NCBI RefSeq assembly: GCF_032051675.1 | Contig: NZ_CP116968.1 | Location: 4,519,001 to 4,583,000, forward strand | Direction of reading: 5' to 3' | From: Candidatus Nitrospira neomarina | GTDB taxonomy: Bacteria > Nitrospirota > Nitrospiria > Nitrospirales > UBA8639 | Length of the DNA stretch: 64,000 bases | Program-made: the position numbers and the translations under genes | The notes under the pieces: model-generated | The model's input: the letters and a program-made list of their open reading frames with translations, nothing else | Database searches by the model: none | Told to the model about the DNA's origin: nothing | In this document: piece by piece, positions 52,544 to 63,401 of the stretch | Layout of the letters: each line of letters begins with the position of its first letter | Numbering within the stretch: position 1 is the stretch's first letter

Positions 52544-54859
52544 TTAGAATATCCCGATGGTCACACCTCCGTAGAAGGAGCGGCCATATCCGGCAAAGAA
52601 CAGTTGTTTGTTGGCATCGGGTGTCGCGTCGGACACGACCTGACCGGACGCTGCGTAGGTCTTGTCCGCAATATTGTTTATTTCGAAAAAGAACTTGGCA
52701 AACCGAAACCAATCATTGTTGAAGGTAAAGGTCTTGTGAAGATTGACGTTGAGAATCCAGTAGGAAGGAATTCCCACGGTATTGCCATTGTTCAGGAAAT
52801 AGCTATTGTAATAATTAGACTCAAGCCAGGCTCCCCAATCATTTTTCGCATCGTCATACATGACCTTCATATTAAGGACATCCGAAGGGACGTTGGGGAC
52901 GTCATTGCCGTCCTGTTTGACTTCGGTGGCCACGCCATTCACCAGATACCGGTCTGTGAAGTTGATGTACTTGGCATCAATGTGGGTGTACGCAGCGTGA
53001 AATTGCCAACCGGGTATCGGTCTCCAATCTGCGGAGACCTCGACACCCCGGTACTCCGAAGAGTCGGCATTGACGGAGGCCGTGTTCGTACCTGAAATGT
53101 TTTGCGAAATAATTTCATCGCGAAAGAAAATCCAGAATCCCACAAGTTGCATATTGAAAGTATTATGAAGCTGGGCTTCGTGACCGAATTCCACGTTCAC
53201 ATTTTTTTGAGGCTTCAAGTCAAAATTGGATCCGGGAAGACCCGTAAGGGGATTGCGGGTCAAATTGCTGAATTGCGGGATGCCATATCCAGTTGACCCC
53301 CTGATCCAATGCCGATAGCCTGCTCTGGGTTCCCACGTCAGGGACATTTCAGGAGCCCAATTGTAGTAGGTCTTGGTAGTGCTGGGCCGGCTGGAGACCA
53401 CCCCATTGGTATAATTAATCGTCTGGATGCTCACGATGGATTGTTCAAAACCGAGACCGGCCGCGACGGTCCAGTTCGGTAAGAATGTCAGCTCTTCTCG
53501 GAATCGTCCCCCGATATTTCGAATGGTTCCCCGGTTGTTCTGGATCAATGTGCCGCGCGTGCCCTGGCCGTCATCCAAATTTTGGAAGGTCTGCCCCTCC
53601 TGTTCCATATTGTTGACGAAGAATCCGAGATAGCTGTTCAGCGGCATGCCTGAGATGTGGCCGGTATGGCGCAAATCGGTATAATGTTTCCAATTGGTAT
53701 TCACATTATCAAAGATTTGATTGAAATACTGGTTAATATCCTTGACGTCATAATCCCCTTCTGTCGTCAAGATGAGGTTTGGTGTCAACTGCCGTTCATA
53801 CATTAATCCGATAATGGTGCGGCGGTCGAGCCGAGATTGATCTCTTGATTTCGTTCCAGTTCCGGCCTGACGATCGTTTGCATTAAATTGGCTCTTGGTA
53901 AGCCGGGTAGGTACCTTTGTATCCAGCCAGTTGGTGATGGCTTTGACGTAGAGGCTCTGTTTTTCGTCAATGGTGAAGCGGAAATTCAAATTCAACGTCT
54001 GGGTGTTATATCCACTGTGATCGATATACCCGTTTTCAGCGGCGTTACTGGCAAATAACGATACATCAAGATTCTTCCAGTGTTGGCCGAACGCGCCCGC
54101 CTGTTTGTTATATCCGTATGATCCACCGGCAAAAAACCCCTCGACTCCATTGATGTCACTGCCCCGTCGGGTTTTAAAATGCACCATTCCGCCTAAGGCA
54201 TAATTGTCATACAGTGAGGAAGCCGCTCCACGGATCACTTCGGTCGATCTCATGAACCACGGGTCCTGGATATCGAGTCGTGACAATCCGTCCGACTGCG
54301 TTTGCTGAAAGCCATCTTCATAGACTTTGATATCCCGGATGGCGAAGGCCGTTTTGATTCCGGATCCTCGAATGGAAATACTGAAGTCCCTGGGTCCATT
54401 AGCCTGGCGCAGTACCACGCCGGGAAGAGATTCCATGGATTCTTTCATCGTTCGGGTGGGTTGAGATTCGGTTTCCGATTGAGGGGTGGAGGATAGTGTC
54501 AGGCCTTCGGGACGTTTTAAAATCCGGGTGCTGACAATACTCATCTCTTCGAGCGTCACCACTTCCTCCTCCTGGAGAGTCGCCTGTGTTTGCCGTTGTT
54601 CATCGGTTTGTTGGGAAGCAGGAATTTGATGGATTTCCCTAAGTTGTTTCCTGATTTCTTCTAGCCTGCTGTTGATGTGATCGAGTTCACCTTCCAACTC
54701 CTGTTGTTGCTGAAGAAGGGATTCTTGGGTCACCGTAGAGGGATTGCTTGATGCAGCAACGGCTGGAGAGAAGGCGCTGGAAATGGTTTGTACGGTGAAG
54801 AGTAGGACGAAGATTGGCCATGACCAATTCCACGAACAGACAGAAAGAAACTGTTTCAC
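52544..54859 (-). CDS. TonB-dependent outer-membrane receptor
   Basis: 771 residues; AAGGAG lies eight bases before the GTG start. A signal peptide (to about 35) is followed by an unusual Gln/Glu-rich coiled coil (about 45-100). A possible TonB box lies at VVTLEEMSIVSTR, then the plug domain (ESMESLPGVVLRQANGPRDF, IRGSGIKTAFAIRDIKVYEDG) and a 22-strand beta barrel (about 240-771) that ends with the aromatic YGGVTIGIF. It imports a ligand too large or rare for porins, using energy from ExbB, ExbD and TonB at 61472-63401. The ligand is unknown; the neighbourhood suggests a metal or metal complex. Confidence 0.93.
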   Translation of the reverse strand: MKQFLSVCSWNWSWPIFVLLFTVQTISSAFSPAVAASSNPSTVTQESLLQQQQELEGELDHINSRLEEIRKQLREIHQIPASQQTDEQRQTQATLQEEEVVTLEEMSIVSTRILKRPEGLTLSSTPQSETESQPTRTMKESMESLPGVVLRQANGPRDFSISIRGSGIKTAFAIRDIKVYEDGFQQTQSDGLSRLDIQDPWFMRSTEVIRGAASSLYDNYALGGMVHFKTRRGSDINGVEGFFAGGSYGYNKQAGAFGQHWKNLDVSLFASNAAENGYIDHSGYNTQTLNLNFRFTIDEKQSLYVKAITNWLDTKVPTRLTKSQFNANDRQAGTGTKSRDQSRLDRRTIIGLMYERQLTPNLILTTEGDYDVKDINQYFNQIFDNVNTNWKHYTDLRHTGHISGMPLNSYLGFFVNNMEQEGQTFQNLDDGQGTRGTLIQNNRGTIRNIGGRFREELTFLPNWTVAAGLGFEQSIVSIQTINYTNGVVSSRPSTTKTYYNWAPEMSLTWEPRAGYRHWIRGSTGYGIPQFSNLTRNPLTGLPGSNFDLKPQKNVNVEFGHEAQLHNTFNMQLVGFWIFFRDEIISQNISGTNTASVNADSSEYRGVEVSADWRPIPGWQFHAAYTHIDAKYINFTDRYLVNGVATEVKQDGNDVPNVPSDVLNMKVMYDDAKNDWGAWLESNYYNSYFLNNGNTVGIPSYWILNVNLHKTFTFNNDWFRFAKFFFEINNIADKTYAASGQVVSDATPDANKQLFFAGYGRSFYGGVTIGIF

Positions 54860-55041
54860 GAGGTAATCTCCTTACAAAAAAGATAAATTGAACATGCATG
54901 AGTCAACCGGCTATGCATGTGGCCAGCAACTAAGAATCAGGCTCACTGAAGGAATTTTCGGGTGAGACCCAGGTTAGGATTCATGAGTATGGGGAAGGAG
55001 GCGTGAATCTCCCGCAACCCACAGCCGAGCCTTAAGAATCT

Positions 55042-55380
55042 TTAGGAGAAAAAGGACAAGAGAACGTGTGGAGGAGCTCTGGCAGATTTGTTCGAAAGAG
55101 AAGGGAGTAAGCCAGGCTGGGCATAGAAAGAAAGGACGGCGCCAAATTCCTGGGATGGGGAATGCCACGATGGAGAGGTGATGAGAGACGTTGACGAAAG
55201 TTTTCCGATGTGACAGGCCCAGTTGCAAAGAACCCCATGAAGAGGTTTCGTATGGCTGTGATGGGATTCCGGAGAATCCAGAGAGAGGTCTTGCACGGTC
55301 ACGCACGCCGTGGATGCCAGGAGCATGGCGAGAAACAGGCTTGATGTCAGGAGGGAGATTGGTCGAAGCCGCTGGTGCAT
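55042..55380 (-). CDS. Short His/Cys membrane protein 1 (DUF2946-like layout)
   Basis: 112 residues. The N-terminal hydrophobic segment ends LLASTAC and could be a lipoprotein signal. A His stretch (ESHHSHTKPLHG) and VLCNWACHIGK follow, then a second weakly hydrophobic part, and the tail SARAPPHVLLSF. The same order (His cluster, C-x-W-x-C, final RAPP/RGPP) recurs in the proteins at 60225 and 61096. DUF2946 proteins in TonB-linked copper or metal regions have a comparable layout, but I cannot confirm membership. The start abuts the TlpA stop, so they are one operon. Confidence 0.68.
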   Translation of the reverse strand: MHQRLRPISLLTSSLFLAMLLASTACVTVQDLSLDSPESHHSHTKPLHGVLCNWACHIGKLSSTSLITSPSWHSPSQEFGAVLSFYAQPGLLPSLSNKSARAPPHVLLSFFS

Positions 55381-55902
55381 TTACTTCGGGTTGAGGAGGT
55401 TGTGGATGTACGCGACGGATTCAGGGCTATCCCATTCTCTGGGCCCCATGATCCGTTGGCTCAGATGTCCGTGAGCATCCACAATCACTGTTGTGGGAAG
55501 ATTTCTGACCATGAGGGCTTGAGAGAGTTCTTCCTGTTCATCCAGGAGGGCATCAAAATGCAACTGGAGTTGCTGCCAAAATACTTTGATTTCTCGCGGA
55601 CGAATATCGGTAGTAACCGCCAGTATGGCCAATTGGTCTGCAGGGAACTTTTGACGAAGACGTTCTAACGAGGGCATTTCTTCCTTACAAGGGCCACACC
55701 AGGTGGCCAAAAAATTCAAGTTGAGGACTCGTCCTTCCAATTCATCCGAATGAATAGATGTGCCCTGCAGGGTGCGGAGCTGGAATGGAGGAAGGGTTTG
55801 GGGGATATCGAATCGGCTAAGAATGAACGGGGTAGAAGAGGGATTTCCCAAAGCCAGGGCCATTCCCAGGACTCCTGAAGCCAGCAGAGAAAGCGGTGTC
55901 AT
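55381..55902 (-). CDS. TlpA-like thiol-disulfide oxidoreductase
   Basis: 173 residues from the ATG at 55902, which overlaps the stop of the upstream propeller gene by four bases (ATGA). A signal or anchor helix (about 4-20) is followed by a thioredoxin fold: LNFLATWCGPCKEEMPSL with Cys69 and Cys72, VTTDIRPREIK and the cis-Pro strand NLPTTVIVDAHG. TlpA-type proteins keep periplasmic Cys reduced, often for metal insertion into haem or copper proteins. The neighbours with CxCC and CxWxC motifs are likely clients; this is inference. Confidence 0.88.
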   Translation of the reverse strand: MTPLSLLASGVLGMALALGNPSSTPFILSRFDIPQTLPPFQLRTLQGTSIHSDELEGRVLNLNFLATWCGPCKEEMPSLERLRQKFPADQLAILAVTTDIRPREIKVFWQQLQLHFDALLDEQEELSQALMVRNLPTTVIVDAHGHLSQRIMGPREWDSPESVAYIHNLLNPK

Positions 55903-57188
55903 GGTTTTGGGTGTAATTGCGCCGTCCGCGAGGTGGGAAAAGAGAGACGATGAACTACCGTACTCCATCCCGGGAAAGCCACTTGCTCGGACCAGGCAAT
56001 GACGGCTTGTCCCAGGTCATTTAATGCCACGGCCGGACTCTTGGCCTTTTTCTCATTCAACTTTTTCGGGGGACTGAATGTCTGTCCCCGATCAAGGGAA
56101 TAGGTGAACACGATTTCCCGCCGCACCGGAGATTGCTCTTCCCAGGATACGAGTAGATGGCCTTCTTGATTCACCGCCAGTTGAGGATGGTCGGGAAACG
56201 TCCCTTTGGACGTGTTCAACGCACGTCGAGGTGTGAAGGTTTTTCCCTGATCATCGGAATAAGCCAGATACACACCCGGCGTATCATCAGGTCCTTCCGT
56301 ATACCAAGTGACATAGAGGCGCCCTTGCTGGTCGACCCCCATGGTCGCGGGACGATGGGGACAGCCCTCGTAGACCCATTGATCATTGCCCACGATAACC
56401 GGGGGAGAAAACGATTTCCCGTTATCGGTGGAACGAGACACGACCGTTTCCCGGACTGCCCCGGACAAGACCTTGCGCCATGCCAGATAGACGGTGCCAT
56501 CAGAGGCTGTGGTCATATGGGTCCGGCAGCAGACACAACTGGATTCGTCAATTTTCAGGTTTGGTGAAAGGGTGCTGCCCTGGTCTTGGGAAAAGACCGT
56601 ATAGGTGGCCGGATCTTTTTTCCCTTCCCGGGCATCAAGCCAGGCGATATGGACGGAACCATTCGGACTGACGGTCAAATGGTCAAAGGAATGGCCGGTG
56701 ACGGCGTCGTCGTCGTTGACTCGAACAGGAGGAAGAAAGGTTTTCCCCCCATCAAGTGACCGGCTCAGGAGAAGAAGATTGGTAAATAATTTACCGCCGG
56801 CTTCGGGATGAGGTGTTGTCCAGGTGATGTACACATCGTTTTTGACGCCTAACGCCAAGGCCGGTGGTTCGTGGAGGGAAGTGGCGGGTGGACTGGAAAG
56901 ATTGACTTTGATGGGTTCTGGGTAATGTTCCTGTTGAGGTGGGATCTTGAGATAATAGACTCCTCGATCTTCCTGCTTTTCTCCGCCCCAGGCGAGGTGA
57001 AGAGTCCCGTCTTTATCCAGTTGAGCAGCTGGGCCGGTGGTTTGCATGCCTTGATGGTCGATGATGTGTTTAGCCCCGGCTTGAACCAACGAAGCAGAGG
57101 GTTCCGCCCCGAGGACTTCGGATATTTCACCTCCCAGGCCCATCGAGAGAGCTAGAGAAATGGTGCCAAAAAGTACAGGTCTTATCAT
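55899..57188 (-). CDS. Exported Asp-box beta-propeller (sialidase-like) with CxCC
   Basis: 429 residues; GGAGG lies five bases before the ATG at 57188. A signal peptide (to about 28) is followed by a sialidase-type propeller with Asp boxes SLDGGKTF (about 144-151), STDNGKSF, SDDQGKTF and SLDRGQTF. I do not see the full Arg triad of true sialidases, so glycosidase activity is doubtful. The stretch ESSCVCCRTHM (Cys about 218, 220, 221) could bind metal or haem, or form disulfides. It leads an operon with TlpA and His/Cys protein 1 by overlap or abutment. It is a likely periplasmic or surface partner of the TonB receptor region. Confidence 0.83.
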   Translation of the reverse strand: MIRPVLFGTISLALSMGLGGEISEVLGAEPSASLVQAGAKHIIDHQGMQTTGPAAQLDKDGTLHLAWGGEKQEDRGVYYLKIPPQQEHYPEPIKVNLSSPPATSLHEPPALALGVKNDVYITWTTPHPEAGGKLFTNLLLLSRSLDGGKTFLPPVRVNDDDAVTGHSFDHLTVSPNGSVHIAWLDAREGKKDPATYTVFSQDQGSTLSPNLKIDESSCVCCRTHMTTASDGTVYLAWRKVLSGAVRETVVSRSTDNGKSFSPPVIVGNDQWVYEGCPHRPATMGVDQQGRLYVTWYTEGPDDTPGVYLAYSDDQGKTFTPRRALNTSKGTFPDHPQLAVNQEGHLLVSWEEQSPVRREIVFTYSLDRGQTFSPPKKLNEKKAKSPAVALNDLGQAVIAWSEQVAFPGWSTVVHRLSFPTSRTAQLHPKP

Positions 57189-57200
57189 GGGTGCCTCCAC

Positions 57201-57928
57201 GGATATTCGAATGTAGGAAGAAGAATTACGTTCATCATTCCTAAATGTGAGAGTGTGTATTTTTACCAGAAGGGTGAAAGCCTACGCTACCTTCAGGATG
57301 TGGAGTGTATGTCAGCGCCGCACCGGATACATATCGATACTACAGTTTTTTTGGTAAATGAAATAATTCAACCAATTCAACCAACCTTTTTGGAGAAATC
57401 ACTGAGTAATAAACTTCAACCTTATTTATCAAGTTCCAGCAGATGGGGAAGTAGAGGAAATCGAATGACCAGTTTTTCAATAGGCAGTATGGATGCCAGG
57501 AAAAATGAATATTCAAGAGGTCGAGCAACATGGAGAGAAAATAGAATATCCATTTATGAATTTTGGAATAAAAAGTCAGGGTGAAAGACAAGGAGGTTGC
57601 AAGTCCAAATGCCTTCACCCTGAAGTGGAGCGGGCTCGGTCAGGGAGAAGTCACGCCGCTCCGAGTTCCGCTGGAAGAGTGCAATGAATTTTTAGCAATA
57701 AAAACTGATATACCCGACTTGCGACTTTTGTTCTACGGGCGTGTGCCGATGCTTGCTACATTGAGGTAGTTCAATGGCCGTATCCTTGGAGTTCACGATT
57801 GGATGACTTCCCTGCGTGGTGCAGTTTTTTAACCCTCTACCAAAGTTCTGGAATGAGTGGAAGCAGGAAGGGAACGAATAAGAGAAACCAAGAGGTTTGT
57901 GAGTTTCTGAGAGGCGCGGCTGGACCTT
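57201..57928. other. Intergenic region, about 730 bases, with repeat hairpins
   Basis: No supported gene. It contains one good and one degenerate copy of a hairpin repeat that recurs at 59119. Confidence 0.4.
57576..57623. repeat. Hairpin repeat, copy A
   Basis: Stem TCAGGGTGAA (57576-57585) pairs with TTCACCCTGA (57614-57623). The interior AGGAGGTTGCA resembles copy B. A degenerate partial copy starts at 57271. Confidence 0.6.
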
Positions 57929-58816
57929 CTATTCCTGCCAATCGAATCCGGAGGCCCGTGCCAATTCTTGCGGGGTCTTGAGGCCGGTTAACCGGCGTTC
58001 CCCGATAATCCACGTGGGGTAGCTTTTAATGTCAGCCTTAGCGCAGGGAGCGGTGAGAGCGCTACCTCGTCCTCCAGAACTACATTCCACGTAAGGAAGC
58101 CGTTTGGCGGACGAAAGAAATTCGGCTTTTTGTTCCTGGCAGCGTGGGCACCAATAGGCACCGTAAAACTTGGCACCGGTTTCATTGAGGTGAATGGCTA
58201 GGGCTTGCATTTGGGGATCTTCCGGGCCGGCGGCTGCGTCGAACACTCCACTATAATGCAAATGCAGTCCGCCGACGATGACAAGGCCGATCACGGCTGC
58301 CTCTTTCAGTGATTTCGTCCAATCGGGAGGCCGTCGAGCGAGGGCCAGACCAAGGGTTGTCGTGATGATGGCAAATGAAGTCAGGCAATATGGACAGGTG
58401 GCTTCGATCTCCAGGACTGAGACGATGGTCAAGTAGGCGCTGACCGCGAATCCGGTCATAGCCACGTAAATCAATGCCGATCCGCTACCGGATTTGCCAC
58501 GGCCGGACCAGGCGAGCCCCGCAATTACCACATAGGTCACGAAGCCCCACAAGGCCATGGGGATTCCCAGAAAGGTTGCCCATCGGCTGCTCTGCACAAT
58601 GTCGCAGCCCGAGCCCTCGCTGCAAAATGCCGGGTGAACCTCGAACGAGGCGGTATAGGTCAGGTAAGCGGTTAATAATAGTCCGGCACCGGCCAGAATA
58701 ATGATGAGAAAGTCCAGTAGGGCTTTCGAACCTGAGGCCATGGAAGACGGAGCGTTCGATGGCTTTCTTGCTGTTTCAGAGCCGATTGATTGTGTCTGTC
58801 GTCTGGATTTTGCCAT
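57929..58816 (-). CDS. VKOR-thioredoxin fusion protein
   Basis: 295 residues from the ATG at 58816 (GAGG six bases before). Four to five membrane helices (about 33-185) form a vitamin-K-epoxide-reductase domain with loop Cys65/Cys71 in FCSEGSGCDIV and the active CPYC at 141-144. A thioredoxin-like domain follows with FYGAYWCPRCQEQ (Cys223, Cys226). Bacterial VKOR fusions reoxidise periplasmic thiols using quinone, replacing DsbB, and the fused domain acts as DsbA. The gene stands alone, but its chemistry complements TlpA upstream and would serve the Cys-rich exported proteins of the region. Confidence 0.92.
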   Translation of the reverse strand: MAKSRRQTQSIGSETARKPSNAPSSMASGSKALLDFLIIILAGAGLLLTAYLTYTASFEVHPAFCSEGSGCDIVQSSRWATFLGIPMALWGFVTYVVIAGLAWSGRGKSGSGSALIYVAMTGFAVSAYLTIVSVLEIEATCPYCLTSFAIITTTLGLALARRPPDWTKSLKEAAVIGLVIVGGLHLHYSGVFDAAAGPEDPQMQALAIHLNETGAKFYGAYWCPRCQEQKAEFLSSAKRLPYVECSSGGRGSALTAPCAKADIKSYPTWIIGERRLTGLKTPQELARASGFDWQE

Positions 58817-58879
58817 TGTATGCCTCGTGAACGAGTGTATCATGGGCTTCTTGCCATTGAAATCCCGACAATGTATCAA

Positions 58880-59255
58880 ATACTCCCGACCGTAGCGGAG
58901 ACTTTTGCCAAGGTAATGTCAGGCCGGTATTCCTCACGATAGATTGCTGATCACAGAATCAAAACTCCAAACGGCTTGTTGCTTTAGGTCCGACGTAAGA
59001 GAGGGATTTTGAGGTCTTTTAGGAATCTTGAGGCTCTACGCCGAAATTATGTACCGCGAAAATTTTTCTGGCGCTGCTGCACTGTGTTGAGGAAAGAAGA
59101 GGTGGGGTGCGCATAGAAGTAGGGTGAAGGCCTAGGAGGCTGCAGATTCGCAAACCACCTTCACCCTACTCGTCCAAGGTTGGAGGCCGGTCCGTCCCTG
59201 GATGTTCTACGCCGATTCGTTTTGCCCGTAACTAGGAAACGATAAACATACTTGG
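58880..59255. other. Intergenic region with repeat hairpin copy B
   Basis: No gene apart from the repeat. Confidence 0.4.
59119..59171. repeat. Hairpin repeat, copy B
   Basis: A perfect 13-base stem, AGTAGGGTGAAGG (59119-59131) against 59159-59171, with AGGAGGCTGCAG inside the loop as in copy A. Confidence 0.65.
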
Positions 59256-59806
59256 TTACTGAGCCGCCTGTATTCGTTTGTCAAAATCTTCATCATACCG
59301 GTGCACAAAGTCTTTGGATGCTCCCAGGGGTAAACGACACCCCCGGCAGGTCCTATAATCGACATCCAATCGTTCCCCATTCGCCTTAAACGCTGCGTAA
59401 ATCCAGTCGCCGTTTTTTACATTCTCCGGGGAGCCTTTTCCCCATCCCGCATCTTTTTGCATGACAAAGACCTTGGCTCAATCCGCCTTTACCAGATTTC
59501 CCTCCGCTCCCTTTTCGAGTGTCCCTTCGGCCTTTTTCTTGGCGTTGTAGATTTCCATCACGAGAATGCTGCCATTGGCAAACGGTTGGCCCGCTTCTGC
59601 GCTTTCCCCGGTGGGTTGATATAGAGGTCGCGGACGGCGTTCGGTTTTTGAACCCCGTGGAGAAATACCGGATAGGATTTGTCATCGACCGGAAAGACCA
59701 ATTCGCCGTCTTTCGGTGTGGAACCGGATTGGGCCGCAATCGGCATGGTGGTGGATGCACACGCTAGAACCACCAAAGCCAGAAATGTGATACTCATTCT
59801 CTCCAT
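59256..59806 (-). pseudogene. Broken cytochrome P460
   Basis: The start at 59806 opens a signal peptide (MERMSITFLALVVLACA) and mature LVFPVDDKSYPVFLHGVQKP. The frame then breaks near 59613, where one base appears lost. In the next frame AGQPFANGSILVMEIYNAKK continues to an in-frame TGA at 59478-59480, followed by VFVMQKDAGWGKGSPENVKN and LDVDYRTCRGCRLPLGASKD. This is the cytochrome P460 family, mono-haem proteins that oxidise hydroxylamine or handle NO in nitrifiers and methanotrophs. The haem motif reads CRGCR: the His codon is CGT (59334-59336), one base from CAT. Three independent lesions argue for a dead gene, but sequence errors cannot be excluded for the indel. Confidence 0.8.
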
Positions 59807-60000
59807 ATTGCTTCGCTTCCTTCGTTGATATCTCGTTCGGTTGATGGAACCGACACATTGTGACAAGGCATATTCAGATCGTTGACGCGGTGGCTCCAGC
59901 ATACGATGGACCATATAGTCCGTCTATAGACGGGTACTAGCTGTTACTACAGTGAGATGGTCGGTGGGGTATAGTCCTCTCATTTCCAGAATTTTTTGGG

Positions 60001-60222
60001 TTAGTGATATTTCGAAGGTACATAAAAGCTAAGTGGATTCATCGCCTGATAGCTGACGTTTGTGCCCATTCCCGCATCGGGATCGACAAAACCATCGGCC
60101 ATCCCGGTTTCGTGCCAGATGAATGCAGACGATGCGGTGGGACCACGATTGAATTGATGGACCCGTTGGGCGAATGTCCGCCTGGCAGCTTCAATCCGGT
60201 CAATCTCCTCGTCCGACGACAA
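60001..60222 (-). CDS. Possible small protein coupled to His/Cys protein 2
   Basis: A 73-residue frame with a TTG start two bases after the stop of the gene at 60225. Protein-like composition (EIDRIEAARRTFAQRVHQF, then FIWHETGMADGFVDPDAGMG). No signal peptide or family. It could be a translationally coupled cytosolic protein or the end of a decayed gene. Confidence 0.35.
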   Translation of the reverse strand: MSSDEEIDRIEAARRTFAQRVHQFNRGPTASSAFIWHETGMADGFVDPDAGMGTNVSYQAMNPLSFYVPSKYH

Positions 60223-60224
60223 AT

Positions 60225-60539
60225 CTAGGCGGAGAAAAAACGGGGAGGAGCACGAGAAGGTTTATGGTGATGACGGAAGAGATCCGGTGCGGTTGGTTTA
60301 AAGAGCGGAAGAACGCCCAACAGCGAAAACGTGCGGAGAATGTCAGTTGACAGTGTCTGAAGGCCTTGCCCGGCTTGACACGTCCAGCTACACCAATTAT
60401 TCCCATGAGTCTCCTGATCATGATGACCGTGGTGTATGTGGAGCGGAGTCGTATAGGCAAGGCCTCCGGTTACGAGCAGGAAGCACATGCTGAGCATGAA
60501 TGCGGCAAGCGACTGTGTGGGAGTGGTCTTCCTCATCAT
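60225..60539 (-). CDS. Short His/Cys membrane protein 2 (DUF2946-like layout)
   Basis: 104 residues. A hydrophobic N-terminal helix (about 11-30) is followed by HIHHGHHDQETHG, then WCSWTCQAGQGLQTLS, a second hydrophobic part (SLLGVLPLFKP), a C-terminal HHH and the tail SRAPPRFFS. It shares the arrangement of the proteins at 55042 and 61096, and has the densest His cluster of the three. It probably faces the periplasm and binds a soft or borderline metal such as copper, zinc or nickel; this is inferred from composition only. Confidence 0.68.
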   Translation of the reverse strand: MMRKTTPTQSLAAFMLSMCFLLVTGGLAYTTPLHIHHGHHDQETHGNNWCSWTCQAGQGLQTLSTDILRTFSLLGVLPLFKPTAPDLFRHHHKPSRAPPRFFSA

Positions 60540-60647
60540 GGTCTATGGCTTTAGCATCAATGTCGATGACCTCTCCCGTCAGGCTAGCGGTTCCTTTGCA
60601 AGGTGTCTACGGACGAGTACTCATCGATGCAACATTTCACTTCATGC

Positions 60648-60854
60648 TCATTGACATTCTGTGATAGCGAACTCCCAATGGTCTTTTCGATTTTGTTGAA
60701 TCAACGCATCAATGGAATCCCGAAATATGCGTAAGCTACCTTTTCCAATTTTTGTCGCCTTCAGGCGATCCTCTTCAACCCATCGGTAAATAGTCCATCG
60801 GCTGACATTTAAGGTTTGAGCGGCTTCACCAACACGCAAGAGTTTTTTGTCCAT
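60648..60854 (-). CDS. Small excisionase/MerR-type HTH DNA-binding protein
   Basis: 68 residues from the ATG at 60854, with AAGGAG five bases upstream. The whole protein is one HTH_17-type domain: LLRVGEAAQTLNVSRWTIYRW, then VEEDRLKATKIGKGSLRI and a C-terminal helix. Such proteins are excisionases of phages and integrative elements or small regulators. No integrase is nearby, so a regulator is more likely. A perfect palindrome lies directly upstream of its ribosome site, suggesting self-control. Confidence 0.82.
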   Translation of the reverse strand: MDKKLLRVGEAAQTLNVSRWTIYRWVEEDRLKATKIGKGSLRIFRDSIDALIQQNRKDHWEFAITECQ

Positions 60855-60866
60855 GGGTTCTCCTTC

Positions 60867-60884
60867 CACAGCAAATATGCTGTG
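60867..60884 (-). promoter_or_regulatory. Perfect palindrome, likely HTH operator
   Basis: CACAGCA-AATA-TGCTGTG, 7+4+7 bases, located 13-30 bases upstream of the HTH gene start and just before its ribosome site. Position and symmetry fit an autoregulatory operator. Confidence 0.55.
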
Positions 60885-61095
60885 TCATAGGATTAACGTT
60901 ATGTGATCGTGTCCGGTTGTTGACCGAGGAGGCCGGCACGAAATGTTTTCAATCGGGTTGAGCGTGGTTTCTTCCGGAGCGCCAGACAGTGAATCAATGG
61001 GGAATGGAGATCATGCAATTATCAACCATTCTGCTCACGGCGAAACGCTGCTCTTGAGGTATGTGTTCAAGGATGGACTGGGTAAGAGTCCCGAT
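60885..61095. other. Intergenic region
   Basis: No gene. It separates the HTH gene from the end of the tonB-exb operon. Plus-strand frames here are shadows of the gene at 61096. Confidence 0.35.
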
Positions 61096-61458
61096 CTATC
61101 CATGAACCAACAAATGAACGGGCGGGCCGCGAGGAGAGAAGGTGTATACGGGGAAGGTTCGAGAAAGGGTGAATGCGGGTTTCAGAGACCAGAGCAGGAG
61201 GGGAAGAAACGGTGCCGCCCATTGAGTAATCGATCCGGCGCCTGAGGCAATTTGGGCGACATGACAAGCCCATGAGCAAAGAAGAGAGAGGGATTCGGCC
61301 GGGTGGGAATGATGGGCAAGGTTGGGATCAAGGGACCTTGAAGCACAAAATGCCCCTGCACCCAGGAGCACCACGTGTAATCCAATCAACAGCACGATCA
61401 GACCGGAGGCCAATCGAGAGTGTAGATTGGTGAATGTGGCCAAAGAGAGGTGCCTCAT
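61096..61458 (-). CDS. Short His/Cys membrane protein 3 (DUF2946-like layout)
   Basis: 120 residues from the ATG at 61458, 13 bases after exbD. A membrane helix (LASGLIVLLIGLHVVLLGAG) is followed by AHHSHPAESLSLLCSWACHVA, a second helix (FLPLLLWSL) and the tail SPRGPPVHLLVHG. HHSH plus L-L-C-x-W-x-C-H match protein 1 almost exactly. It is the last gene of the TPR-tonB-exbB-exbD operon, which ties this protein type directly to TonB-driven uptake. Confidence 0.72.
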   Translation of the reverse strand: MRHLSLATFTNLHSRLASGLIVLLIGLHVVLLGAGAFCASRSLDPNLAHHSHPAESLSLLCSWACHVAQIASGAGSITQWAAPFLPLLLWSLKPAFTLSRTFPVYTFSPRGPPVHLLVHG

Positions 61459-61471
61459 GGGATCCGGGTGC

Positions 61472-61882
61472 TTATGATTCCGAATTGGGTTTTGTGGCAA
61501 TTGCCATGTTGGGAATGCCTGCCAATCGAATGATATCCATCACCTTAATCACCTGGCCATGAGGAACCTGTTCATCGGCGTTAATGACGATTGATGGGTC
61601 AGAATCGGTTTGTCGAAGACTTGTCAGCCGGATTTCCAGTTCCGAGAGTTCAATGCGATCCTTATTGTAGTACAGCGTTCCTTCATGGGTCAGAGTGAGG
61701 GAGATTTGATCAGGAACTTTATCCGTGGCCGAGTCGGCAGTTGGTAAGTTGACCGGCATCCCATGCTGAATGGTCATGGAAAGCGTGGCGATCATAAAAA
61801 ACACCAGGAGAAAAAACATCGTATCGATCATCGGAATGATCTCGATACGAGCCTTTTTTTTTACCGCTGCTGGGAGTTTCAT
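61472..61882 (-). CDS. exbD: ExbD energy-transducing protein
   Basis: 136 residues. A single N-terminal membrane helix carries the proton-path Asp20 in IIPMIDTMFFLLVFFMIATL, followed by the periplasmic ExbD/TolR domain (SLTLTHEGTLYYNKDRI, VINADEQVPHGQVIKVMD). It works with ExbB to pass proton-motive energy to TonB. The start overlaps the exbB stop by four bases. The neighbouring tonB argues for ExbD rather than TolR. Confidence 0.93.
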   Translation of the reverse strand: MKLPAAVKKKARIEIIPMIDTMFFLLVFFMIATLSMTIQHGMPVNLPTADSATDKVPDQISLTLTHEGTLYYNKDRIELSELEIRLTSLRQTDSDPSIVINADEQVPHGQVIKVMDIIRLAGIPNMAIATKPNSES

Positions 61883-62481
61883 GAGTCTGGAGCCGTAGAT
61901 TCTTGAAGGGTAGTCTGGAGCTGCGTGGCGTATTGTTCTATGCGTTCGGTTTCCTGCTCAACTTGCGAAAGGAAATAATTATAAGGAATGAGTGTAATGA
62001 CGGCGACACAAATCCCCGCTGCGGTACAGATCAGGGCCTCAGCCACACCCCCGGTGACTGCATGGGGATTACCTAAACCCGTTTCGGCCATAATGCCAAA
62101 GGAACTGATCATCCCGATAATCGTGCCAAGTAGCCCGAGTAAAGGCCCCAACGTAATCACCGTATCCAGGATGGATAAGCCGCGTTTAAGTTGAGACACT
62201 TCTGCGATTCCCGCCGCTTCCATGGCTTTGTCTGGCTGTTTCGCGCGGTGAAATATACCTGCAGCCAGAACCCGTAAGGTCGGACTTTGTCGTTGTTCGG
62301 CTACTGCCAGTGCATCGGACCATTTTCCCTGCCCGGCCAGCTTAATTATCCGATCTGCGAGGCGGCTGAAGCGTAACGATCGGAATTTAAGGCCTCGTTC
62401 AATGGTGATGGTCAGCGCTAACAATGAGCAGCCTAAGATGGGGATCATCATCCATCCGCCCTTGATAAGTATTTGAATCAT
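61879..62481 (-). CDS. exbB: ExbB/TolQ-family proton channel
   Basis: 200 residues with three membrane helices: residues about 5-25, 105-130 and 145-170. The family stretch GLSILDTVITLGPLLGLLGTIIGMIS and the conserved VAEALICTAAGICVAVITLIPYNYF are present. It forms the pentameric channel around the ExbD helices. The short cytosolic loop is typical of ExbB in a TonB setting. Confidence 0.93.
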   Translation of the reverse strand: MIQILIKGGWMMIPILGCSLLALTITIERGLKFRSLRFSRLADRIIKLAGQGKWSDALAVAEQRQSPTLRVLAAGIFHRAKQPDKAMEAAGIAEVSQLKRGLSILDTVITLGPLLGLLGTIIGMISSFGIMAETGLGNPHAVTGGVAEALICTAAGICVAVITLIPYNYFLSQVEQETERIEQYATQLQTTLQESTAPDS

Positions 62482-62507
62482 TTCTATCTTCCTTTTCCTT
62501 TTTTCAC

Positions 62508-63401
62508 TTAACTGTTCAGGTCAAATCTAATGGGAATGTCGACCCATTTGGCGATGGGGATGTTCCCGTCTTTGGCTGGCAGAAATTTCCAGTTTTTAAT
62601 GGCTTCTTGGGCAGCCAGATCTAAAGCTTCATGCCCGCAGCTCTTTCGAATTTCTACCTGGCTCGGTGCGCCGTCGGCGGTAATCAATGTTCGCACAATA
62701 ACCGTGCCTTCCCAACCAGATTCCCGCGCCACACGGGGATACAATGGCTTGGATGAGGCCACGATTTTCGGCTTGGAAGTTGAGGATCCGGCCGCCATTG
62801 GTGGCGGAGTTTTTAATGCGGGACGAGCCGCCGGGCTTGGCGGAGGGGGCAGCGTGTGTTGGGCTTTTGGTTCGCGACTGTTCATTGGTAAGGGAGTTCT
62901 GGCAATGGGTTGTTCCTGCTGTGGCGGCGCTGTTGCAAGCGGAGGCCTTTGCTGGTGTTGTGAAGGCACTGCCATTTTCATCATTTGACGACTCTTCATG
63001 GCCTGCTCCGTTCGCGTGTCTTTGAGCATCGGCTGTGCCTGAGGAAGAGGCGGCGGCGGAGTCAGAGGTTTGGATGGGGTTTGTTTGATCGATGCCTGCA
63101 TCGGAGGCGCCGGCATGGACGGTGTAGGTTCGGTCCGGGGGGGCGGTGGCGCTGGTTTGGCAAAATGTGGTGTGGTTGGCGTGAGGGGTTTCGTGATCGG
63201 TTGTGGGGTGGGACTGATCTCTTGGAGAGCCGGGACCAACGTCACCTGAACCGTTGGTGTGGGGTCATTCAATGCGGGAGGACTTGGAATATAGGCCAGG
63301 GCCGCAAGAATGGCCGCATGAAGAATGGCGCTGCCCAGAGCGCTCAGGAGAAAAACCCGATTATTCACATCAGAAGAGGAATCTTCAAACGTGGAGTTCA
63401 C
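62508..63401 (-). CDS. tonB: TonB
   Basis: 297 residues with a GTG start overlapping the TPR gene stop by four bases. The anchor helix has the SxxxH motif (S24-AIL-H28). A very Pro-rich linker (about 45-205) spans the periplasm. The C-terminal domain (about 215-297) carries SSKPLYPRVARESGWEGTVI, then IRKSCGHEALDLAAQEAIKNW and IRFDLNS. It drives the receptor at 52544 and perhaps others. The linker of about 160 residues is long, which fits a wide periplasm. Confidence 0.93.
   Translation of the reverse strand: MNSTFEDSSSDVNNRVFLLSALGSAILHAAILAALAYIPSPPALNDPTPTVQVTLVPALQEISPTPQPITKPLTPTTPHFAKPAPPPPRTEPTPSMPAPPMQASIKQTPSKPLTPPPPLPQAQPMLKDTRTEQAMKSRQMMKMAVPSQHQQRPPLATAPPQQEQPIARTPLPMNSREPKAQHTLPPPPSPAARPALKTPPPMAAGSSTSKPKIVASSKPLYPRVARESGWEGTVIVRTLITADGAPSQVEIRKSCGHEALDLAAQEAIKNWKFLPAKDGNIPIAKWVDIPIRFDLNS

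Follow-up and report, generated by a model that had tools for sequence, protein, structure and literature searches.

Here we describe three short open reading frames (ORFs), P1, P2 and P3, that lie around a TonB system in a 64,000-nucleotide stretch (the window) of the complete 4.8-Mb genome of Candidatus Nitrospira neomarina. We consider that each probably encodes a cis-acting metal-sensing leader peptide, that is, a regulatory upstream ORF (uORF) of the CruR or CutF kind, and not a finished metal-binding protein. This reading is founded on membership of a common family, a shared motif, a fixed spacing, constraint on the coding sequence, the order of the genes and a bias of C over G in the transcript. 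From these features we infer that P1, P2, P3 and a fourth copy just beyond the window, P4, would arrest their own translation, that the metal would be copper, that Rho would take part and that the response would be of the sign seen with CruR.

Each of the three proteins has an N-terminal hydrophobic segment (KD19 1.87, 1.97 and 2.57 in P1, P2 and P3, respectively), a cluster of histidines preceding a CxWxC motif, and a RAPP or RGPP tetrapeptide close to the C-terminus (Table 1). The original prediction had picked out these same elements, and they prove to be strongly non-random: the full layout occurs three times in the window and in none of 100 dinucleotide shuffles, and among the 59 longer ORFs called in the window (17.5k residues) R[AG]PP is found in P1–P3 only. 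The tetrapeptide had been described as the final tail; it is close to the end of each protein without being strictly terminal, as five to eight residues come after it. The neighbours named at the time, exbD and TlpA, are also in place, with P3 beginning 13 nt past exbD (from the preferred ATG at 61458; a TTG at 61500 is a longer alternative) and P1 abutting tlpA with 0 nt between them. When compared with their orthologues from sister species, P1–P3 gave ratios of nonsynonymous to synonymous substitution (dN/dS) of 0.18–0.44 and P4 gave 0.16–0.22, and all four are therefore real, constrained proteins.

The proteins belong to one coherent small-protein family, as had been proposed. With P3 alone as the query, 32 of 59 related genomes yielded relatives, and the named relatives from the single-protein scan are four metagenome-assembled genomes of Nitrospirales, UBA8639 among them. 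A profile hidden Markov model of the P2-like class, in which 41 residues separate the second cysteine from RxPP, matched 107 of the 295 Nitrospirota genomes searched, essentially the order Nitrospirales and some of its class, with no match elsewhere in the phylum; this profile alone gives one to nine matches per genome, many of them preceding a gene of their own. The genome of Ca. N. neomarina itself holds five copies, four within about 11 kb. A scan for the layout in 54 regions, window included, yielded 137 distinct matches, with CxWxC in 131, RAPP in 69 and RGPP in 63, and one match (CMGC, RQPP) that is probably due to chance. The profile of the 41 class and that of the class with longer linkers are clearly related (probability 98%, E 2.5e-14).

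The spacing was also examined in a non-circular manner, using a profile that ends just after the Cys motif and is blind to linker and tail. It recovered 157 complete members, 156 of which have RxPP, at 41 (96 members), 42 (35), 43 (3) or 44 (22) residues from the second cysteine; the single member lacking it looks like a broken copy. The linker columns are poorly conserved, with a mean top-residue frequency of 0.25–0.36. Few parts of the family are as well conserved as the His/CxWxC site, which has four to six histidines within the 20 residues ahead of the cysteines in most members and a nearly invariant tryptophan. A length that is conserved where the sequence is not, running from a putative ligand site to a stalling tetrapeptide, fits the need of a mechanism that operates on the nascent chain.

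CruR, encoded by bp2923 of Bordetella pertussis, is a DUF2946 (PF11162) protein and the uORF of the TonB-dependent receptor gene bfrG; its RAPP keeps the receptor on, and copper, acting through CXXC, switches it off by Rho-dependent termination (PMC9426467). The CXXC–RAPP spacing, 45 in CruR, varies by no more than one or two residues in more than 2000 members, and adding five residues abolishes copper control (Roy 2022, PMC9426467). In vitro, CruR has been shown to arrest translation; of all arrest motifs RAPP and RGPP are the most permissive, proteomes avoid them, and uORFs bearing them are widespread ahead of TonB-dependent receptors in Gram-negative bacteria (EMBO J 2025, PMC12992588). CutF of Rhodobacter capsulatus, which has CxxxC, a Sec signal and a proline-rich end, responds to copper by turning on a multicopper oxidase by way of a hairpin (Öztürk, PMC9973294). 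Because this layout makes a regulatory nascent-chain sensor in both CruR and CutF, action in cis on the following gene is the most likely role of the Nitrospirales proteins.

A likeness to DUF2946 had been suspected from the layout, and it is borne out by the Cys pair, the fixed spacing and the RxPP near the end. P1–P3 have no Pfam or NCBIfam match at E<=1, and PF11162 finds nothing in their own genome and scores above its curated cut-off in 0 of the 295 Nitrospirota genomes. For both linker classes DUF2946 comes first among Pfam families by number of members (8 of 31 and 7 of 25 relatives, best E 9e-4), always below its cut-off wherever a cut-off was reported. The DUF2946 proteins that we fetched read CxxC-45/46-RxPP-3, and in one case a gene with the annotation TonB-dependent copper receptor follows 85 nt downstream. 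P1–P3 likewise have a RAPP-type motif near the C-terminus, at a fixed distance of 41–44 residues, and members of the set precede genes of metal import (P1 a receptor, P4 tonB); in place of CxxC all three have CxWxC, as do nearly all matches of the layout scan. Strict membership of DUF2946 thus fails, owing to the score below cut-off and to CxWxC, and to judge from its sequences the family is a variant that probably works like CruR and CutF. The suggestion that it might be new accordingly holds as regards the Pfam cut-off, yet the kind itself is known and the family a distant variant of it.

The resemblance to CruR extends to the small exported ORF, the Cys pair, the C-over-G bias of the transcript and the long gap to a TonB-dependent receptor (162 nt in CruR, 182 nt for P1). 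The Nitrospirales family differs from CruR in its CxWxC with preceding His cluster, in its shorter spacing, in using RGPP about as often as RAPP, and in having several copies spread through and inside one gene cluster rather than only at its head. With CutF the family shares CxxxC spacing, a Sec signal, Pro-Pro at most 15 residues from the end, a length under 150 aa and a same-strand downstream gene (PMC9973294, PMC8456105), although the short hairpin of CutF serves to switch on a multicopper oxidase, whereas the putative targets here are receptors, tonB and outer-membrane proteins, and the P1 receptor lies at a longer gap. P1, P3 and P4 show the CutF-like length, Pro-Pro, signal sequence (judged by hydropathy in place of SignalP) and same-strand gene, the latter within 1 kb; behind P2 no more than the remnant of a gene is left. 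The arrest peptides ApdA, ApdP and the RQH family also place RAPP or RGPP near the C-terminus of a small exported uORF, but those characterised act mostly on sec or yidC genes, and a conserved His/Cys site is outside their definition (PMC10987492, PMC12992588).

The gene that follows differs with the linker. For long-linker (42–44) sensors the first downstream gene matches receptor families in 16 of 19 scanned cases; behind 41-residue sensors are TonB, TlpA/AhpC-TSA, a Phenol_MetA_deg-like outer-membrane protein or an unknown exported protein, no receptor family being found in this tally, and for several of them the gap to the next gene is short. These counts are not independent, the sequences being related by descent. 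A third kind, CxWHC-42-RGPP, lies ahead of a conserved protein of about 490–570 aa that has a lipobox-like N-terminus and matches no Pfam family (L119:10612-12499, L135:6438-8418 and similar loci). The difference C minus G per 78 nt averages +6.3 in the uORFs of the family and +0.1 in the downstream genes; it is 14.5 in P1 (36% C and 17% G on the coding strand), 10.3 in P3 and 9.5 in P2; the longer genes of the window reach 9.6 at most.

Table 1. Candidate sensor uORFs, their motifs and associated features (window positions unless a locus is given).
Feature	Position	Strand	Remarks
P1	55042-55380	-	112 aa; long-linker class, CNWAC-44-RAPP-8; candidate sensor uORF
P1 CxWxC motif (CNWAC)	55213-55227	-	His cluster just upstream
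P1 RAPP, arrest-type motif	55069-55080	-	8 residues then stop; same motif arrests in CruR (PMC12992588)
P2	60225-60539	-	104 aa; 41-linker class, CSWTC-41-RAPP-5; candidate sensor uORF
P2 CxWxC motif (CSWTC)	60378-60392	-	
P2 RAPP	60243-60254	-	5 residues then stop
P3	61096-61458	-	120 aa; long-linker class, CSWAC-44-RGPP-7; candidate sensor uORF
P3 CxWxC motif (CSWAC)	61264-61278	-	
P3 RGPP, arrest-type motif	61120-61131	-	7 residues then stop
P4, candidate fourth sensor uORF	L031:3354-3647 (= window 65353-65646, outside window)		heads tonB-TPR-tonB-exbB-exbD
Fifth copy in the genome	G000:C1:3848263-3848556		precedes 380-aa outer-membrane protein
TonB-dependent receptor, putative P1 target	52544-54859	-	GTG start behind AAGGAGA
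P1–receptor intergenic region	54860-55041	-	182 nt
TlpA-like thioredoxin	55381-55968	-	directly upstream of P1
tonB-exbB-exbD	61472-63401	-	upstream of P3; operon headed by P4
Excisionase/MerR-like helix-turn-helix (HTH) protein	60648-60854	-	68 aa; first gene after P3; between P3 and P2
Remnant of ~270-aa exported protein	60001-60222	-	last ~70 codons, right behind P2 stop

According to the mechanism that we propose, the signal sequence would thread the nascent chain to the Sec channel, and RAPP or RGPP would stall the ribosome shortly before it finishes the ORF. At this point the His/CxWxC site, 41–44 residues back, would be just out of the ribosome tunnel and able to bind a metal, most likely Cu(I). 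Metal binding would alter the stall; by analogy with CruR, arrest would be relieved, the ribosome would leave, and Rho would load on the C-rich, G-poor transcript and stop transcription ahead of the import gene. When metal is scarce, the stalled ribosome would cover the transcript and the polymerase would continue into the receptor, HTH or tonB genes, so that uptake would be off at plentiful metal and on at scarce metal. The predicted target of P1 is the TonB-dependent receptor, that of P4 the tonB-exbBD operon and that of P3 the small DNA-binding protein together with the P2 segment; P2 would formerly have controlled an exported protein now deleted. A more far-reaching version, which we regard as possible and put forward tentatively, is that Nitrospirales govern the genes of metal import and of the envelope by arrays of CxWxC metal-sensing arrest peptides, one per transcript segment, with two ruler lengths matched to the kind of target (41 residues for tonB, outer-membrane and exported proteins, 42–44 for receptors), each segment with a set-point of its own or even the opposite sign, and with the tryptophan forming part of a Cu(I) site that CruR lacks. 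CusF provides a precedent for contact between Cu(I) and tryptophan. A similar contact by the nearly invariant tryptophan between the cysteines is a speculative possibility.

The receptor behind P1 has matches to the Pfam barrel (6e-31) and Plug (7e-14) models, and its pairing with P1 is kept in sister species. Over the stretch that aligns, the leader between them has about 90% identity among four species; as a candidate for an unusually stable fold it was rejected, its folding energy being ordinary (z -0.1). A small pairing of a U-run with AGGAGAU upstream of the receptor is conserved, as seen in the alignment only, and no intrinsic-terminator match is present in the leader regions of P1 or P3.

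The gene order in the genus is secA (divergent), P4-tonB-TPR-tonB-exbB-exbD-P3-small HTH-P2-exported ~270-aa protein-cytochrome P460, and then, further on, a VKOR-DsbA-like gene and, at the end, BNR protein-TlpA-P1-TonB-dependent receptor. The VKOR-DsbA-like protein (57929-58879) joins a membrane domain of the VKOR type to a thioredoxin-like Cys domain, a combination for disulphide formation. Some species have an extra block between exbB and exbD, comprising an amidohydrolase-like gene, a sensor P5 and a second receptor (L032:13811-18254), which is absent from this genome; sensor uORF and receptor seem to travel together. The HTH protein is 75–97% identical in the relatives checked, a conservation that speaks against a chance occurrence of its gene between P3 and P2, and it is possibly a regulator within the circuit. 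Behind P2, the remnant is 87% identical to residues 204–273 only of the exported protein of relatives, about 200 codons and the leader having been deleted in this genome; the intact protein (e.g. L032:11071-11895) keeps conserved Cys and matches no Pfam or NCBIfam family. The cytochrome P460 gene (59256-59914) has a frameshift and an in-frame stop and is intact in sister species (e.g. L034:15571-16188). With its downstream gene reduced to the last ~70 codons and the P460 gene broken, P2 is probably an orphaned regulator in the course of being lost. The gene secA (L031:3933-6653) is divergent from the cluster, for which reason a link to its regulation was rejected; in another family of the order a 906-aa ORF, equal to it in length and probably secA, is found at the corresponding place (L137:2839-5559). 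A hairpin with a T-tail before tonB was rejected as an attenuator, as it is not conserved in sister species.

Several observations weigh against cis-acting copper sensors of the CruR type. P1 and P3 are placed after other genes and not at the head of an operon as CruR is, no gene for a receptor or importer directly follows P2 or P3 in this genome, and profile–profile comparison gives a weak match to DUF2946 (long class, E 1e-4 and probability 57%; 41 class, E 0.006). The C-over-G bias may stem in part from a composition rich in Ser, Pro, His and Thr. The receptors resemble siderophore or PqqU models and give no good match to the copper-specific model, so that the metal is not fixed by gene context. 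The signal might be periplasmic thiol redox or another metal such as zinc or iron/haem, the two Cys forming a disulphide or binding another ligand; this we consider rather doubtful, but it would accord with TlpA and the VKOR-DsbA-like protein as neighbours and with RAPP uORFs reported ahead of thioredoxin genes (PMC12992588). The His cluster and the tryptophan suit a metal site, and the relatives in DUF2946 tested so far respond to copper. Also to be set against the CruR type is the U-run/AGGAGAU pairing, which could mask the ribosome site of the receptor and would fit a translational switch. In a switch of the CutF type, metal would prolong the stall and the ribosome would open a hairpin masking the next ribosome site, turning the gene on at high metal; CxxxC spacing as in CutF and not CruR (PMC9973294), the Sec-type signal and the short gaps behind several 41-class members point the same way. 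We judge such a switch unlikely here, since 182 nt with unremarkable folding (z -0.1) separate P1 from its receptor, too far for opening by a ribosome at RAPP, and metal would be expected to turn importers off, not on.

The original prediction had seen in the three ORFs a membrane protein family that binds a metal next to TonB import. The link to TonB stands and metal binding is probable; a finished membrane protein is harder to sustain than a regulatory nascent chain. The hydrophobic segment, the His/Cys site, the TonB neighbours and purifying selection would all suit small metal-binding proteins or chaperones serving import, but this would leave unexplained why a linker of poor conservation should keep an exact length of 41–44 residues before a ribosome-stalling tetrapeptide that bacteria avoid (PMC12992588), and the fact that each gene segment has a copy of its own speaks for action in cis; we therefore hold it improbable. 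That spacing, the receptor gene behind P1, the copies beyond the window and the meaning of the tail had not figured in the prediction. Least credible of all, and in our view very improbable, are export sensors of the SecM or ApdP type, in which arrest at RxPP would be released by the pulling force of Sec and no metal would be involved. The arrest motif is shared and secA lies divergently beside P4, but secA is encoded on the other strand, there is no sec gene downstream, and the His/CxWxC site belongs to the parts that are best conserved. Metal-sensing leader peptides of the CruR or CutF kind thus remain our preferred reading of P1–P3.

A limited literature search found nothing on copper control of TonB in Nitrospira. 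Sensing of metal by translation arrest is known from very few proteins, and here it would be the rule in an entire order of nitrifiers. The principle, that of CruR and CutF, is known; what is new is the distinct CxWxC version, the density of copies, the two ruler lengths and the spread through the order. The natural variants, with 41, 42 or 44 residues, RAPP or RGPP, and CxWxC or CxWHC, offer a ready set for studying how a nascent chain measures metal. The finding also suggests a function for proteins that lie outside all curated families, and it predicts that relatives of Nitrospira control in this way the uptake of a metal that they need.

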